The notes beneath the pieces are model-generated. The model was not told the origin of the DNA, did not search any database, and was given only the letters and a program-made list of their open reading frames with translations. From a virus: 26,454 nucleotides of DNA. The stretch covers positions 1 to 26,454 of IMG/VR virus record IMGVR_UViG_3300025168_000562, one strand, 5' to 3'. Shown here one piece after another: positions 5,151-17,714 of this stretch (the stretch's first letter is position 1; each line of letters begins with the position of its first letter). The position numbers and the translations under genes were made by a program.

Positions 5151-6764
5151 ATGTCAACATTTTTAAAAGGTAGAGAATTATCAGAACTCGAAGCTGCTGC
5201 ATTAGAAGTATTAGTTAAAACTATTGCTCCTAATCCAGAAGAATATAGAGTGGATGAGGCTGTACATCCAATGGGCGTTCATGTTACATCTGTATCTGGG
5301 AAAAAAGTAGAAGGCCTCCCAGCATATAAAGTTACTAAAATTGGGTCTAAAGTAAAAGAACACGGTGGTATAACAGTTGGAGAACATTTACATGATAATC
5401 ATTTAGATGATTTAGCTGATATGGGTCATAAAATAAAAAATGAACAAGTTACTACAGAAGCTAATAGTCGCATGTTTAAAGCAAAAGGCCAATATTCAAC
5501 TGGAGAGCCAAATCCTATATCGAACAATGGCGACACTGTTTCAGGACCACAAGATCAACTTCAAAAAAAAGCAGAGGGTAAGATGAATTTAATTCAAGCA
5601 TCAGTGAAGGAAATTTCCCAAAGGGCCAAGAGTAATGGTACCCAAAAGGAAAGTAAAGAAGTCACAGAGGACATGCATAAGAAAAAGAAAAAACATGACT
5701 GTGCATCTAAAGTAAAATCAGAAGAATATGGTATTGGTTATTGTATTCCAGAACAACATACCATGTTAGAAGATGGAACTGTTACTCATTATGATGTCGA
5801 GTTTGATGATGTTATAATTCAAAATTTTCCTGTAACAGAACTTGAAATAATTGAAGAATCAAGTCATATGCATGAAGTTAATCAAGAAAAAAATGAAGAA
5901 GTTGCACAACAAAGTGAAGCAGCCCACAAAGATGTTGAAGTACAACAAATCCCAATGAATCAAAAACATACAGCTAAGATGAAAAAAGCATCAAAGATGT
6001 ATAAATCAGTTCCAGCTTCACAGCGTGGAACCGGTTCTGCTGGGAAGCGTGGTGGTGATTCTGGATTTAGTAATGTTAAGATGGAAGACATGCATGATTC
6101 TGAAGAAGGAATGTCAAAAGATGCTAAAAAGAAAGTAGCTAAAGGAAAGTCAAATTACAAAGGTTTAGATAATGCAAAAGGTGATGACGATAAAGATGCT
6201 GTTGCCGAAGGTGCATTAGGCACAGGTCTTGGAGCAGTTGGGGGAGCAGCAATAGGAGGTCCAGTTGGTGCAGCTGTTGGTGGTGTTGCTGGCCATATGG
6301 CTCAACAAGGTTTAAGAAAGTTAGGTAAAAAAATAAAGTCAGGTATTGCAGGTTTTAGAAAGCCACAAACAGCAGAATCTATGAATAAAATGAAAGAAGA
6401 TACAGATGTTGATTATACTGTAATTGAACACAACGCTTTCGACATAGAAATTCCTGAAGAGCTTCTTTTTGCAGATTATTTAAATGCAGCCTCTACTTTT
6501 ACAGAAAATCACAGTGATGCTGTTAAGATAGCAGATCAATTTTTTGGTGAAAATGATGAATCAATTATTTTTGAGGCATTTACAAGAAAAGATATAGAAG
6601 ATAGGATTTCAGCACACGCCAAAGCTGGAAAAGCAGTTAGTATGCCTAAATATGGTATGAAAGATGGAAAACCAACAGCCGAATATACTGTTACTGATAA
6701 AGATGCGGGTTCTAAGACAACATTCATGCATCACGGTAACATTAGGCGTGTCACAAGAAATTAA
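5151..6764 (+). CDS. Large hypothetical virion-type protein with SH3-like and glycine-zipper segments
   Basis: 537 residues, mostly hydrophilic and Lys/Glu-rich. Residues about 175-235 contain HDCASKVKSEEYGIGYCIPE followed by beta-strand sequence, resembling small SH3/Tudor-like barrels such as those ending UvrD-type helicases; this link is tentative. Residues about 350-385 are glycine/alanine-rich with GxxxG spacing (GAVGGAAIGGPVGAAVGG), a glycine-zipper pattern able to insert in membranes. The C-terminal 130 residues are acidic, then end in a basic FMHHGNIRRVTRN. An AGGA site precedes the ATG. It lies between small conserved genes and a large Ig-like structural gene, so a capsid, core or ejected protein is the best guess. 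Confidence 0.65.
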   Translation: MSTFLKGRELSELEAAALEVLVKTIAPNPEEYRVDEAVHPMGVHVTSVSGKKVEGLPAYKVTKIGSKVKEHGGITVGEHLHDNHLDDLADMGHKIKNEQVTTEANSRMFKAKGQYSTGEPNPISNNGDTVSGPQDQLQKKAEGKMNLIQASVKEISQRAKSNGTQKESKEVTEDMHKKKKKHDCASKVKSEEYGIGYCIPEQHTMLEDGTVTHYDVEFDDVIIQNFPVTELEIIEESSHMHEVNQEKNEEVAQQSEAAHKDVEVQQIPMNQKHTAKMKKASKMYKSVPASQRGTGSAGKRGGDSGFSNVKMEDMHDSEEGMSKDAKKKVAKGKSNYKGLDNAKGDDDKDAVAEGALGTGLGAVGGAAIGGPVGAAVGGVAGHMAQQGLRKLGKKIKSGIAGFRKPQTAESMNKMKEDTDVDYTVIEHNAFDIEIPEELLFADYLNAASTFTENHSDAVKIADQFFGENDESIIFEAFTRKDIEDRISAHAKAGKAVSMPKYGMKDGKPTAEYTVTDKDAGSKTTFMHHGNIRRVTRN

Positions 6765-12019: not shown

Positions 12020-12502
12020 ATGATGATTGGTATAGGTTCCTCAATAAAATTATTCTTAATATTGTTAATAATAGGTAGTTTACTGGCAGCTGGTTGGTAT
12101 GTTACAGGTATGCGAGAACAGTTAGCTATTTCACAAAACAACAACGAAAAATATGAACAAGCAGTTTTTGATCAGCAATTATTAATCAAACAGATTAAAG
12201 AAGATGTACAAAGTATTCAGGAAGCTAATAATGAATTAGCTAGTGTAGTTAAAAAACAAAACAAAGATTTAAATTCACTACACAAAAAGTTTGAAAAAAC
12301 TAAACCTGATGGTACTGTTAGAGATATTGGTAAGATAGCTGTACGCAGACCTGAATCAATCGAAAGAATAATAAACAATGCAACAAAAAACTCACTACGG
12401 TGCTTGGAAATAGCATCTGGTGCACCTTTAACGGAAGATGAAAAATATGGCAAGAAGATTAATACAGAATGCCCTGCTCTTATGCCTGATAACGGCTCTT
12501 AG
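12020..12502 (+). CDS. Putative inner-membrane spanin (Rz-like)
   Basis: 160 residues. An N-terminal membrane helix (about 9-28, IKLFLILLIIGSLLAAGWYV) is followed by a periplasmic coiled coil (about 33-95, EQLAISQNNNEKYEQAVFDQ onward). That is the layout of Rz-type i-spanins, which join an outer-membrane partner and fuse the two membranes at the end of lysis. The C-terminus has cysteines (LRCLEIASG, TECPALMP). The next gene, in another frame, is a lipoprotein overlapping its last 56 bases, the usual Rz/Rz1 arrangement. An alternative start is the next ATG, one codon later. An AATAAATA box lies just upstream. Confidence 0.75.
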   Translation: MMIGIGSSIKLFLILLIIGSLLAAGWYVTGMREQLAISQNNNEKYEQAVFDQQLLIKQIKEDVQSIQEANNELASVVKKQNKDLNSLHKKFEKTKPDGTVRDIGKIAVRRPESIERIINNATKNSLRCLEIASGAPLTEDEKYGKKINTECPALMPDNGS

Positions 12503-12830
12503 TGGTTGTGCAAGTTTTAGTTTACCTTTTTTTGGTAAAAAATCAGCAGCAAGACCTGTTGAGATACAAACAAAAGCAGTAGAAAAACAAAATTTAAATT
12601 TAAAGACACCTGACCCTCTAAATCTAAAAGATGTAGAATGGATAATTGTGAATAAAAGCAATGTAGAGGAAGTTTGGAAAAAATTAAAGAAAAATGAAAA
12701 AGATATTGTGTTATTTGGTATCACAGACGATAGTTATAAAGAGTTATCAGTAAACTTAATCAAGTTAAGAAACTTAATAAACACACAACGTATTGTAATA
12801 ATGCAGTACAAAAAATACTACGAACAATAA
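12447..12830 (+). CDS. Putative outer-membrane lipoprotein spanin (Rz1-like)
   Basis: 127 residues with an N-terminal lipoprotein signal: MARRLIQNALLLCLITALSG then Cys at 21 (lipobox LSGC). The ATG at 12447 follows GGAA by 10 bases; the ATG at 12438, three codons earlier, has its GGAAG directly against it, so 12447 is preferred. The mature part includes a conserved LNLKDVEWIIVNKSNVEEVW segment and a helical C-terminus (NLIKLRNLINTQRIVIMQYK) that I recognise as a common family of marine myoviruses. Partial overlap with the i-spanin gene in a different frame supports a two-component spanin, though this protein is longer than most Rz1. Confidence 0.75.
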   Translation: MARRLIQNALLLCLITALSGCASFSLPFFGKKSAARPVEIQTKAVEKQNLNLKTPDPLNLKDVEWIIVNKSNVEEVWKKLKKNEKDIVLFGITDDSYKELSVNLIKLRNLINTQRIVIMQYKKYYEQ

Positions 12831-12847
12831 TAAGAGATGGAGTGAGT

Positions 12848-14881
12848 ATGGAAAATGTTTTCCATGATATAACTGTCAATTTTGATAGAGATAATTTATT
12901 TGATGAACTCGGAATGAAAAGACTTGAAGAATCCTATATGAAGGAGGAAGAAAGATCCCCACAAGAAAGGTTCGCTTATGTTTCGAAATCATTCTCGACG
13001 GATATCGCACATGCCCAGAGATTATACACTTATGCATCTAAGCACTGGCTTAGCTATTCTACTCCCATTCTTTCTTTTGGTCGTAGTGCCCGCGGTTTGC
13101 CTATTAGTTGTTTTTTACCCTATCTACCTGATAGTTCAGAAGGCTTGGTCAGCACTCTTTCGGAAGTAAACTGGCTTTCAATGTTAGGTGGTGGAGTTGG
13201 TATAGGTATTGGAATTAGATCATCAGATGACAAGTCTGTAGGCGTTATGCCACATTTAAAAACTTATGATGCATCTTCCTTAGCATATCGTCAAGGAAGA
13301 ACTAGAAGAGGCTCATACGCAGCCTATTTGGATATATCACATCCGGATATAATACAGTTTTTGGAAATGAGAAGACCTACCGGTGATCCAAACATGCGTA
13401 CGTTAAATTTACATCATGGTGTTAACATCAACGATAAGTTTATGGAAATCATAGAGAAGTCTATGATAGATAAAGATTTTGATGATAGTTGGGAATTGAA
13501 AGATCCACATGATAATAGTGTGAAGGAGGTAGTCTCTGCTAAAGAACTATGGCAAAGAGTTTTAGAATTAAGAATGATGACAGGCGAACCCTATATTCAT
13601 TTTATTGATACTAGCAATAGAAAGATGCCAGATTTCCAAAAGAAGTTAGGACTAAGTATTAAGCAATCAAATCTCTGTTCAGAAATTGTATTACCAACTG
13701 ATAAAAATAGAACTGCGGTATGCTGCCTATCTTCACTTAATTTGGAGTACTATGATGATTGGAAAAATGAAAGTCTTTTTCTGCGGGACGTTGCTGAGAT
13801 GCTCGATAACGTATTGCAGTATTTTATTAATAACAGTCCAGATGGTGTACAGCGTGCAAGATATAGTGCTACAAACGAGCGTAGCATTGGTGTCGGCGCT
13901 CTTGGCTTCCATGCCCATTTGCAGAAGCATAAATTACCTTTCGAATCCGCACTTGCAAAGTCGAGAAACGTGGAAATCTTCAGACACATCAGACGAGGAT
14001 TAGATGAAGCAAATTTGGAACTCGGGTCAATTAGAGGAGAAGCTCCTGATGCTGCTGGCACTGGTCTTAGGTTTTCTCACCTTATGGCTGTTGCTCCCAA
14101 TGCTAGTTCTAGTATTATTATGGGTAATACTTCTCCTAGCGTAGAACCATACAGAGCAAATGCTTATAGACAAGATACACTCTCAGGGTCATTTTTAAAC
14201 AAAAACAAATATTTGGATAAAATTATAAAGGAAAAAACAAATGACACTGAATATAACAAGGTGTGGAGCAACATTATTGCTTCCGACGGATCCGTACAAC
14301 ACCTTGATATACTCAATGACAGGGAAAAGGACATCTTCAAAACGAGTATGGAGATTGACCAAAGATGGGTTGTGGAGCACGCAGCTGACAGACAAAATTA
14401 CATTGACCAGGCGCAATCCATTAATTTATTCTTTCGGCCGGACTGCAATGTAAAATATTTACATGCAGTTCATTTTATGGCTTGGAAACTTGGATTAAAA
14501 ACTTTATATTATTGCAGGTCAGAAAAAATTGGCAAAGCAGATAAGGTAGCAAAAAAGATTGAAAGAGAAGTTATCAAAGAGCTTGATATGAAAGCTCTTG
14601 CATCAGGTGAAACAAGAACAAGAGCTCAAGTATACGGAACAGATAATTGTATATTTTGTTCAAAAACAAAGGCTGAGTTAAGTCTTCGTGGAATACCTTT
14701 TGATTTTGTTAATATAAATGAAATAGGTAAAACAGCAGCTGAAGTAACTGGAAGACCTGTTAAAACAGTACCACAAATATACCTTGAAGGAGAATATGTT
14801 GGTGGGTATGAAGAAATGATGAGCTATTTTAATAGTTCGTTTCAACAAGATAATGATGAATGTACAGCTTGTGAGGGTTAA
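12848..14881 (+). CDS. nrdA: Ribonucleotide reductase class I alpha subunit with internal glutaredoxin domain
   Basis: 677 residues; reduces ribonucleotides to deoxyribonucleotides with NrdB. Active-site residues are clear: Cys88 (PISCFL), N275-C277-E279 (NLCSE, thiyl radical site), Cys292 as the partner of Cys88, and YY in TLYYCRSE as the radical relay. The N-terminus is short: the ATP-cone of E. coli NrdA is absent, so inhibition by dATP at that site is not expected. After the core, a glutaredoxin domain starts near 14617 with CIFC (14648-14659) and a TVPQIYLEGEYVGGYEEM end, then comes the RNR redox tail ECTACEG. GGAG 5 bases ahead favours this ATG over a GTG at 12842. GC content changes sharply near 14450. 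Confidence 0.95.
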   Translation: MENVFHDITVNFDRDNLFDELGMKRLEESYMKEEERSPQERFAYVSKSFSTDIAHAQRLYTYASKHWLSYSTPILSFGRSARGLPISCFLPYLPDSSEGLVSTLSEVNWLSMLGGGVGIGIGIRSSDDKSVGVMPHLKTYDASSLAYRQGRTRRGSYAAYLDISHPDIIQFLEMRRPTGDPNMRTLNLHHGVNINDKFMEIIEKSMIDKDFDDSWELKDPHDNSVKEVVSAKELWQRVLELRMMTGEPYIHFIDTSNRKMPDFQKKLGLSIKQSNLCSEIVLPTDKNRTAVCCLSSLNLEYYDDWKNESLFLRDVAEMLDNVLQYFINNSPDGVQRARYSATNERSIGVGALGFHAHLQKHKLPFESALAKSRNVEIFRHIRRGLDEANLELGSIRGEAPDAAGTGLRFSHLMAVAPNASSSIIMGNTSPSVEPYRANAYRQDTLSGSFLNKNKYLDKIIKEKTNDTEYNKVWSNIIASDGSVQHLDILNDREKDIFKTSMEIDQRWVVEHAADRQNYIDQAQSINLFFRPDCNVKYLHAVHFMAWKLGLKTLYYCRSEKIGKADKVAKKIEREVIKELDMKALASGETRTRAQVYGTDNCIFCSKTKAELSLRGIPFDFVNINEIGKTAAEVTGRPVKTVPQIYLEGEYVGGYEEMMSYFNSSFQQDNDECTACEG

Positions 14882-14883
14882 TT

Positions 14884-15300
14884 ATGAAAGTAGGATTTAC
14901 ATGTAGCACTTTTGATTTATTACATGCTGGTCATGTACAAATGTTAAGAGAAGCAAAATCAGTGTGTGATTATTTGATAGTCGGATTACAAATTGATCCA
15001 ACTATTGATCGAGAAGAAAAAAATAAACCAATACAAACTATTGTAGAAAGATATGTTCAACTTCAAGCGGTAAAACATGTAGATGAAATTATTACGTATT
15101 CTACTGAAAAAGATCTTGAAGACATATTAGCAATGTATCAAATTGATATACGAATTATGGGTGTTGAGTACAGGAATAAAGATTTTACAGGTAAAGATCT
15201 TTGTAGAAAAAGAAGTATTCAACTTTATTTTAACAAAAGGGACCATAGGTTCTCTACTTCCGATTTACGTGAAAGAGTGAGTTTAGCAAATGAATCATAG
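14884..15300 (+). CDS. Cytidylyltransferase-family enzyme (TagD/RfaE-like)
   Basis: 138 residues, the length of glycerol-3-phosphate cytidylyltransferase (about 130). It has STFDLLHAGH (residues 8-17; the HxGH nucleotide-binding motif), VERYVQLQAVKHVDEII (the RxxxxxxxxxVD motif) and the C-terminal STSDLRERV, matching the ISTTxxR signature. It would transfer a nucleotide to an alditol or sugar phosphate. The substrate cannot be read from sequence: CDP-glycerol (TagD) and ADP-heptose type (HldE C-domain) are both possible. A GAGG at the end of nrdA is the ribosome site (6-base spacer). Its end overlaps the phosphomannomutase start by 11 bases, so the two may act in one sugar-activation path. 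Confidence 0.85.
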   Translation: MKVGFTCSTFDLLHAGHVQMLREAKSVCDYLIVGLQIDPTIDREEKNKPIQTIVERYVQLQAVKHVDEIITYSTEKDLEDILAMYQIDIRIMGVEYRNKDFTGKDLCRKRSIQLYFNKRDHRFSTSDLRERVSLANES

Positions 15301-16015
15301 ATATGTTTTTGATGTAGATGGTACACTAACACCAAGCAGAAAAAAAATATTACCAGAAATGGAAACTGCTTTTAGTACATTTATAGATAACTACAGTGTT
15401 TACCTAGTTACAGGTAGTGATTATGAAAAAACACAAGAACAGCTTGGTAAGCATATAGTTGAAAAAGTTGAAAAAGTTTACAATTGTTCAGGTAGTGATG
15501 TTTGGGCTGCTGGTAAGAATATAGAAAGAAGTGAATGGAAACTACCATTTGAAGCACGAATGTGGTTAGAGGATAGACTAGATAATAATCCATATCCAGT
15601 TAAAACAGGTTTGCATATTGAACAAAGAACTGGTCTATGTAACTTTAGTATAGTTGGTAGAAATGCAACACATACTCAAAGACAAGAATATGTTAAATAT
15701 GATAACGAAACAAATGAAAGAGATAATATTGTTAAAGATTTTAATGTTGTATTTTGTAATATAACATCAAGCGCAGGTGGTGAAACTGGTGTTGATATAC
15801 ATCCAGTAGGAAAAGATAAATCACAGATAGTCAATGATTTTAACGACAATGATGTAATCCATTTTTTTGGGGATAGAATGGATAAAGATGGAAACGATTA
15901 TAGTTTATCATTAAAGGCTTACAAAAGTTATCCCGTTGGATCATGGAAAGACACTTATAATTTGATAGTTTCATTAAATCAATTAGCGGTTTTGAATGGA
16001 AATAATAAAGACTAA
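15290..16015 (+). CDS. HAD-type phosphomannomutase (eukaryotic PMM family)
   Basis: 241 residues, close to human PMM2 (246). It would interconvert mannose-6-P and mannose-1-P by an Asp nucleophile. Motif I is FDVDGTLTPSR with D8 and D10; LVTGSDYEKTQEQLG matches the PMM segment (V)GGSDFEKVQEQLG; the cap has GLCNFSIVGR (the Arg-rich sugar-phosphate site); and the end has GGETGVDIHPVGKDK and FFGDRMDKDGNDY, equal to GGxxSFDVFPxGWDK and the metal-binding GND motif. Bacteria usually use a different phosphohexomutase family, so this is unusual. It overlaps the cytidylyltransferase gene upstream. Activity on other phosphosugars is possible. Confidence 0.88.
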   Translation: MNHRYVFDVDGTLTPSRKKILPEMETAFSTFIDNYSVYLVTGSDYEKTQEQLGKHIVEKVEKVYNCSGSDVWAAGKNIERSEWKLPFEARMWLEDRLDNNPYPVKTGLHIEQRTGLCNFSIVGRNATHTQRQEYVKYDNETNERDNIVKDFNVVFCNITSSAGGETGVDIHPVGKDKSQIVNDFNDNDVIHFFGDRMDKDGNDYSLSLKAYKSYPVGSWKDTYNLIVSLNQLAVLNGNNKD

Positions 16016-16136
16016 ATCAGGATATTGGGTTGTAGGATATATTACTGTTCTAGGTGGTCCATTCACTACAGACATTCAAGCACAAAAACATAGAAAGTAT
16101 CTATTAGACAAATGGCATATTCAAGCAAAGTACTAG
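15996..16136 (+). CDS. Small hypothetical protein (46 aa)
   Basis: A 46-codon frame from ATG 15996 bridges the 96-base gap between the phosphomannomutase and iscU genes. It overlaps the first by 20 bases and the second by 25. It reads MEIIKTKSGYWVVGYITVLG then a GGPFTTDIQAQKHRKYLLDK stretch, a well-mixed protein-like composition with a strand-rich start and a helical basic end. No ribosome site is clear and no family is recognised. The fill-the-gap pattern resembles that of the 9823-9990 gene. Confidence 0.5.
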   Translation: MEIIKTKSGYWVVGYITVLGGPFTTDIQAQKHRKYLLDKWHIQAKY

Positions 16137-16519
16137 ATCATTACGAAAATCCAAGAAATGTTGGATCAATGGACAAAACTAATCCAAATGTTGGAACAGG
16201 GATGGTTGGAGCTCCTGCTTGTGGTGATGTAATGAAATTACAAATTAAAGTAGAAGATGGTATCATTACTGATGCTAAGTTTAAAACATATGGATGTGGT
16301 AGCGCAATTGCTAGCAGTAGTTTAGTTACAGAATGGGTGAAAGGAAGAACTGTTGATGAAGCTGTTGAAATTAAAAATGCCGAGATAGCGACTGAACTTG
16401 CATTACCTCCTGTAAAAATACATTGTTCAATATTAGCCGAAGATGCAATTAAGGCTGCTGTTGAGAATTATAAAAATAAATCCAATCAAATTGAAGTTAA
16501 CATAGAAAAATTAAATTAG
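16112..16519 (+). CDS. iscU: Iron-sulfur cluster scaffold protein IscU
   Basis: 135 residues against 128 in E. coli IscU, which it resembles over nearly all its length. It assembles [2Fe-2S]/[4Fe-4S] clusters with the cysteine desulfurase IscS and passes them on through HscA/HscB. All ligands are present: ACGD (Cys37, Asp39), YGCGSA (Cys63) and IHCS (His and Cys near 105/106). The LPPVK chaperone-recognition motif is kept directly before the last Cys. Flanking residues MAYSSKVLDHYENPRNVGS fit the family start. No iscS, hscA or fdx lies nearby, so it would work with host partners. It lies between the sugar-phosphate genes and nrdB. Confidence 0.95.
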   Translation: MAYSSKVLDHYENPRNVGSMDKTNPNVGTGMVGAPACGDVMKLQIKVEDGIITDAKFKTYGCGSAIASSSLVTEWVKGRTVDEAVEIKNAEIATELALPPVKIHCSILAEDAIKAAVENYKNKSNQIEVNIEKLN

Positions 16520-16742: not shown

Positions 16743-17714
16743 ATGCTAAAAGACGAGAGACAATATTTCAAACCATTTAACTACCCATGGGCTTATGATA
16801 AATGGTTGAAGCATGAGCAATCACATTGGTTACATACAGAAGTACCAATGTTAGAGGATGTAAAAGACTGGAAGAAAAAATTAACTGATTCAGAAAAACA
16901 TTTTTTAACTAATATTTTTAGATTTTTTACACAAGGTGATATTGATGTTGCTGGAGGGTATGTACAAAATTACATTCCACATTTTCCACAACCAGAAGTA
17001 AGAATGATGTTATTAGGATTTGCTGCAAGAGAAGCATTACACATAGCTGCATATTCACATTTGATTGAAACTCTAGGAATGCCAGAGTCAACGTATTCTG
17101 AATTTGCAGAATATGAAGAGATGAAAGATAAACATGATTATATTATGTCTTTATCAGCTAAGAATGGAACAGTAGAATCCACAGCTGCGCATATTGCTGC
17201 TTTCAGTGCATTTACAGAAGGTATGCAACTCTTTTCATCATTTATTATGTTGTTAAACTTTCCAAGACATGGAAAAATGAAAGGAATGGGTCAAATAGTA
17301 ACTTGGTCTATTGTTGATGAAACACAACATACTGAAGGTATGATTAAATTATTTAGATCATATGTTGAAGAAAACAATGAAATATGGAATGATGATCTTA
17401 AAGGTAAAATTTATACTATTGCAGAAAAAATGGTTGAACTTGAAGATAAGTTTATTGATTTATCATTTGATACAGGGGCTATTCAGGGTCTTACAGCTGA
17501 TGAAGTTAAAGAGTATATAAGATACATAGCTGATAGAAGATTAATTAGTATGGGTATGAGAGGTATATATAAAAGAAAGACTAATCCTTTACCTTGGGTT
17601 GAAGAAATGATTAATGCACCAACACATACTAACTTTTTTGAAAACAGAGCTACAGATTATGCAAAGGGTTCTTTGTCAGGAGGTTGGGATAAGGTTTGGG
17701 GCAAGGCTGCTTAA
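16743..17714 (+). CDS. nrdB: Ribonucleotide reductase class I beta subunit
   Basis: 323 residues; the radical-generating small subunit that partners NrdA at 12848. The di-metal ligands are in order: Asp66 (FFTQGDID), Glu97 and His100 (AREALH), Glu159 (FTEG), Glu193 and His196 (VDETQH). Tyr104, four residues after His100 as in E. coli Tyr122, is the likely radical site. No ATP-cone is found at its N-terminus. The AGGA site lies 6 bases before the ATG. The stop overlaps the next ATG (TAATG). nrdA and nrdB are 1.9 kb apart here, with sugar, IscU and lipoprotein genes between. Confidence 0.95.
   Translation: MLKDERQYFKPFNYPWAYDKWLKHEQSHWLHTEVPMLEDVKDWKKKLTDSEKHFLTNIFRFFTQGDIDVAGGYVQNYIPHFPQPEVRMMLLGFAAREALHIAAYSHLIETLGMPESTYSEFAEYEEMKDKHDYIMSLSAKNGTVESTAAHIAAFSAFTEGMQLFSSFIMLLNFPRHGKMKGMGQIVTWSIVDETQHTEGMIKLFRSYVEENNEIWNDDLKGKIYTIAEKMVELEDKFIDLSFDTGAIQGLTADEVKEYIRYIADRRLISMGMRGIYKRKTNPLPWVEEMINAPTHTNFFENRATDYAKGSLSGGWDKVWGKAA

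Follow-up and report, generated by a model that had tools for sequence, protein, structure and literature searches.

Genes and features at the nrdA locus

The window, that is, the whole stretch of 26,454 nucleotides that was analyzed, comes from an uncultivated virus record (26 kb) of a marine-type phage. It contains an open frame that runs from a GTG codon at position 12842 to position 14881; the in-frame ATG at 12848 is the likelier start, judging from the GGAG sequence that sits 5 nt upstream of it (Table 1). Residues are numbered here from the GTG as residue 1 (protein P0001, 679 amino acids). The NCBIfam model PRK09102 (NrdA) matches residues 7-584 with 742.3 bits, as compared to a cut-off of 620, and by this assignment the product is a class I ribonucleotide reductase (RNR) catalytic subunit of the PRK09102 type, with predicted reductase activity. 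Downstream of the core, the Pfam glutaredoxin (Grx) model matches residues 597-653 (E 1.9e-9). On the basis of its CxxC, TVP and GG motifs and of its predicted fold, the inserted domain is a dithiol glutaredoxin, whose glutathione-dependent activity is predicted. The structure predicted for this segment matches T4 glutaredoxin, E. coli Grx3 and Francisella Grx1 (1aba, 3grx, and 3msz, respectively). The AlphaFold model of the full-length protein has a mean pLDDT of 73, with values below 50 in the linker and in the tail; the domain placement is of low confidence, and the position of Grx relative to the active site is not fixed by the model. Across 28 fused sequences, C90, C279, C294/C295, Y556/Y557, and the C-terminal CxxC are invariant.

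The partner subunit NrdB is encoded in the same genome as the fused NrdA. No Grx was found on this radical-generating subunit of 323 amino acids, so the system is not of the Grx::NrdB type. The interval from nrdA to nrdB holds a complete gene for an IscU-like Fe-S scaffold, with all three cysteines and the LPPVK motif; an iscU is again found close to other phage nrdA genes, whether they have Grx or not (L001, L002, L109, L112, L126, L125, L040, L048, L055, L076, and L077). Directly after nrdA come two genes, one resembling a cytidylyltransferase gene and the other a phosphomannomutase gene of eukaryotic type. Just upstream of nrdA, the gene for an Rz-like spanin overlaps with that for a small lipoprotein, which resembles the outer-membrane partner of this spanin.

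Table 1. Position in the window of nrdA, its domains and motifs, and the neighboring genes.
Feature	Position	Strand	Residues	Remarks
Rz-like spanin gene	12020-12502			overlaps the next gene
Small lipoprotein gene	12438-12830			
nrdA-grx gene	12848-14881	+		alternative in-frame GTG start at 12842
NrdA core, PRK09102 family	12860-14593	+	7-584	without ATP-cone
Linker from core to Grx	14594-14626	+	585-595	low confidence
Glutaredoxin domain	14627-14842	+	596-667	Pfam match, motifs, predicted fold
CIFC motif of Grx	14648-14659	+	C603/C606	
TVP motif of Grx			642-644	
GG motif of Grx			654-655	
Flexible end	14843-14878	+	668-679	contains the NrdA redox tail
Redox tail ECTACEG	14858-14878	+	E673-C674-T-A-C677-E-G679	followed by the stop
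Cytidylyltransferase-like and phosphomannomutase-like genes	14884-16015			
iscU-like gene	16112-16519			
nrdB, radical-generating subunit	16743-17714	+		323 aa, without Grx and ATP-cone

The redox tail belongs to NrdA

The preliminary description of this DNA had placed the glutaredoxin between the NrdA core and a redox tail kept from NrdA, and the comparison with relatives bears this out. When a whole-protein search was carried out, 77 of 80 viral relatives showed a Grx-less C-terminus ending in KELDMKAIVEGDTCLACEG or a near variant, while in 3 of the 80 the Grx lies between a KELDMKAIVEGDTCLACEG-like segment and the terminal CxACEG. Since the Grx-less relatives end in the same CxACEG tail directly after the core, the tail is NrdA's own and was kept after the insertion; an assignment of the terminal CTAC to the glutaredoxin throughout the relatives is thereby refuted. 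The fused tails (CTAC, CRAC, and CLAC) overlap with the Grx-less ones (CLAC), an overlap that bears on whether the tail moved together with Grx. An alignment that mixed fused and Grx-less sequences (A2), in which the CxxC of the Grx-less tail fell on the CxxC of Grx, was replaced by one of fused sequences only.

The lack of an ATP-cone, from which the same description had argued for a possible escape from dATP shut-off during infection, is real but not special to this enzyme. In fact, ATP-cone models gave no match in the NrdA and NrdB of the window or in 28 fused sequences; the lack is shared by the Grx-less relatives and characterizes the NrdAi/NrdAk groups (PMC6370689). The Grx-less relatives, of about 600 amino acids, have no room for an ATP-cone either, and for this reason its absence is not linked to the insertion of Grx. 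The advantage that lytic phages may draw from losing it ("no dATP shut-off") was already proposed for cyanophages (Harrison et al., 2019; PMC6370689).

Recurrence and conservation of the fused layout

The same domain order recurs in other phages, both in environmental viral loci and in named phages. A search of viral contigs with an alignment of Grx plus tail gave at least 565 candidates, and the best 80 were examined. All of them, several seen only partially, encode an NrdA with Grx before CxACEG; three of these contigs were already among the matches of the whole-protein search. Because the query favors this very layout, the 80 loci do not give an estimate of frequency. In a search of 50,697 phage records, the matches listed with the layout are phage C48C1, Delftia phage PhiW-14 (two records), and the Acinetobacter phages SH-Ab 15599 and nACB2. 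When viral sequences were scanned with the protein of the Delftia phage as query, it matched nothing beyond itself. The NrdA of both Acinetobacter phages carries, besides Grx, an intein-like insert directly after the SNLC catalytic cysteine (L090:2649-5270 and L091:2661-5279). When 84,980 species genomes were scanned, a single match was obtained, on a 142-kb contig, probably of a phage, in a bacterial MAG. From this single-pattern scan with its one match, an absence of the layout from bacteria is suggested at most.

Each of the 54 distinct fused C-termini retains both CxxC pairs, whereas the linkers, including the stretch from Grx to the tail, vary in length and sequence. The CxxC, TVP, and GG motifs of Grx are conserved across fused lineages that are about 50% identical, and most of the fused Grx motifs are the ordinary dithiol ones, CPFC and CPYC. 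An assembly artefact as the source of the fusion was rejected, since the 54 distinct sequences come from many samples.

Phylogenies of the NrdA core and of the glutaredoxin domain

On the tree of NrdA cores, from which six rows without the trimming motif were omitted, the fused label needs three changes. The fused sequences form three groups, namely Delftia plus Acinetobacter, the C48C1 lineage (23 rows), and the lineage of the window (7 rows), the last being nested among Grx-less NrdAs. A core clade uniting the C48C1 and window lineages was rejected (p-AU 6e-6, quick tree). On the Grx tree, by contrast, these two lineages group in a single clade with support 98/96; the Grx of Delftia and Acinetobacter stands next to it (support 92/73), and the 19 free Grx that were sampled all fall outside the fused groups. 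The Grx alignment is short (76 columns), and therefore the finer branching of this tree was disregarded.

The two trees conflict, in that the cores lie apart and the Grx domains together, and this indicates module exchange. The simplest reading of these sequences appears to be that divergent phage nrdA genes exchanged a 3' segment bearing Grx; the module, either alone or together with the tail, would have passed between distantly related phage NrdAs. On plasmid p7 of Rhizobium, a free grx gene and the end of an RNR gene have 4 bases in common (L204:1545-4240), an overlap that is a possible pre-fusion step.

Redoxin genes in fused and Grx-less records

The fused viral records that were searched have exactly one Grx match each, the fused one. 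Thioredoxin was searched in 22 fused records and gave no match, so that a second redoxin was found in 0 of 22, as compared to a small thioredoxin-like gene in 8 of 17 Grx-less records (Fisher p=4e-4, a value that overstates the evidence because the records are mostly fragments and mutually related). The other 9 of the 17 Grx-less records gave no detectable redoxin gene, and a phage redoxin may therefore not be essential. In two Grx-less records the thioredoxin-like gene lies between nrdA and nrdB, adjoining the latter: it encodes an 81-aa thioredoxin with a WCGPC motif and overlaps the nrdB start (L186:5214-5456; L187, reverse complement, 5347-5589).

The related Melnitz-type lineage is arranged differently: its NrdA has no Grx, and among L214-L293 all 76 loci containing nrdB have Grx at the N-terminal end of NrdB, an arrangement that also speaks for a role of Grx tied to the reductase. 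This Grx-NrdB protein is labelled hypothetical in the Melnitz-1 record. Even though nrdB is present in 72 of the 80 fused loci, no locus showed Grx on both subunits.

A candidate built-in reductant

The active site of class I RNRs is re-reduced by two cysteines at the C-terminus, which in turn are reduced by thioredoxin, glutaredoxin, or NrdH (PMC6187632). The Grx fused to NrdB of Facklamia ignava reduces its RNR in vitro (PMC6187632). By this analogy, and on the basis of the conserved motifs, we consider it probable (about 0.75) that the protein of the window is a phage class I RNR catalytic subunit carrying its own reductant, in which the built-in Grx recharges the tail. Turnover would oxidize the cysteine pair of the active site, which the C674/C677 pair would re-reduce; C603/C606 of Grx, inserted just upstream, would then reduce C674/C677, acting in cis or in trans, and host glutathione would re-reduce Grx. 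The tether would keep reductant and tail at a high local concentration. The phage may in this way be freed from the host redoxin pool, still depending on host glutathione and NADPH. A tethering of the reductant to the tail fits both the retention of the CxxC pairs in 54 of 54 C-termini and the fused phages without other redoxin genes.

Grx might instead be present without being the main reductant, the tail being reduced by host thioredoxin or glutaredoxin as in the Grx-less relatives, about half of which have no detected redoxin and presumably use that of the host. We consider this unlikely, because the motifs of Grx are kept across such divergent lineages and the fused phages have no other redoxin. 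Even less probable is that Grx serves other targets, such as NrdB protection or the upkeep of a metal cofactor with the neighboring IscU, with RNR as a mere carrier. Such a role would agree with the place of iscU, which in the window follows nrdA and precedes nrdB and in several relatives lies close to nrdA, but iscU is also found near Grx-less nrdA and in only one C48C1-type locus among those examined, and the fused Grx motifs are mostly of the ordinary dithiol kind. It is very improbable that electrons pass straight from the CxxC of Grx to the active site, with the terminal CxxC left as a relic: one fused lineage does have the Grx CxxC 36 residues after the YY dyad, like the tail cysteine in most Grx-less NrdAs, but the terminal CxxC is invariant in 54 of 54 sequences while the linker varies, and the Grx cysteines lie within a folded domain.

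Grx and tail together might be a mobile, self-contained electron-relay module that passes between divergent NrdAs and makes the reductase independent of a separate redoxin. The tail would then work despite a folded domain in its arm, and the subunit that it serves may be the other one of the dimer. We put forward this broader proposal tentatively, at slightly less than even odds. The protein would represent a natural single chain of RNR and reductant, and the shuttling of electrons by a swinging C-terminal tail, a long-standing question, is approachable in it with cysteine mutants. It may also suggest a route by which marine phages loosen their dependence on host redoxins in DNA synthesis.

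Comparison with known systems

The Grx::ATP-cone::NrdB of F. ignava (Rozman Grinberg et al., 2018; PMC6187632) is similar in that a dithiol Grx is covalently joined to a class I RNR. There, Grx is at the N-terminus of NrdB, together with an ATP-cone, and its role as reductant was demonstrated, whereas in the window it lies inside NrdA, before the tail and without an ATP-cone, and its role is one that we infer. According to the same source, Grx fusions to all RNR components are on record, including Grx with NrdA in two viruses. These two are similar to the present case and possibly include Delftia phage PhiW-14, which has the layout of the window; its text does not describe for them the order of domains, the retention of the tail, the distribution, or an exchange of the module. 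In the open-access texts searched, we found no description of the Grx position before a retained tail, of its spread in environmental phages, or of the module exchange.

The NrdAs of pelagiphages (HTVC019P) and of other phages with a PRK09102-type enzyme share the core, the lack of an ATP-cone, and the CxxC tail, but have no Grx domain. Methylophilales phage Melnitz comes close in another respect, having an NrdA of the same PRK09102 family and a Grx tethered to the holoenzyme. However, in the Grx::NrdB proteins of Francisella (PRK12759) and Melnitz, Grx is carried by the other subunit and NrdA is Grx-less.
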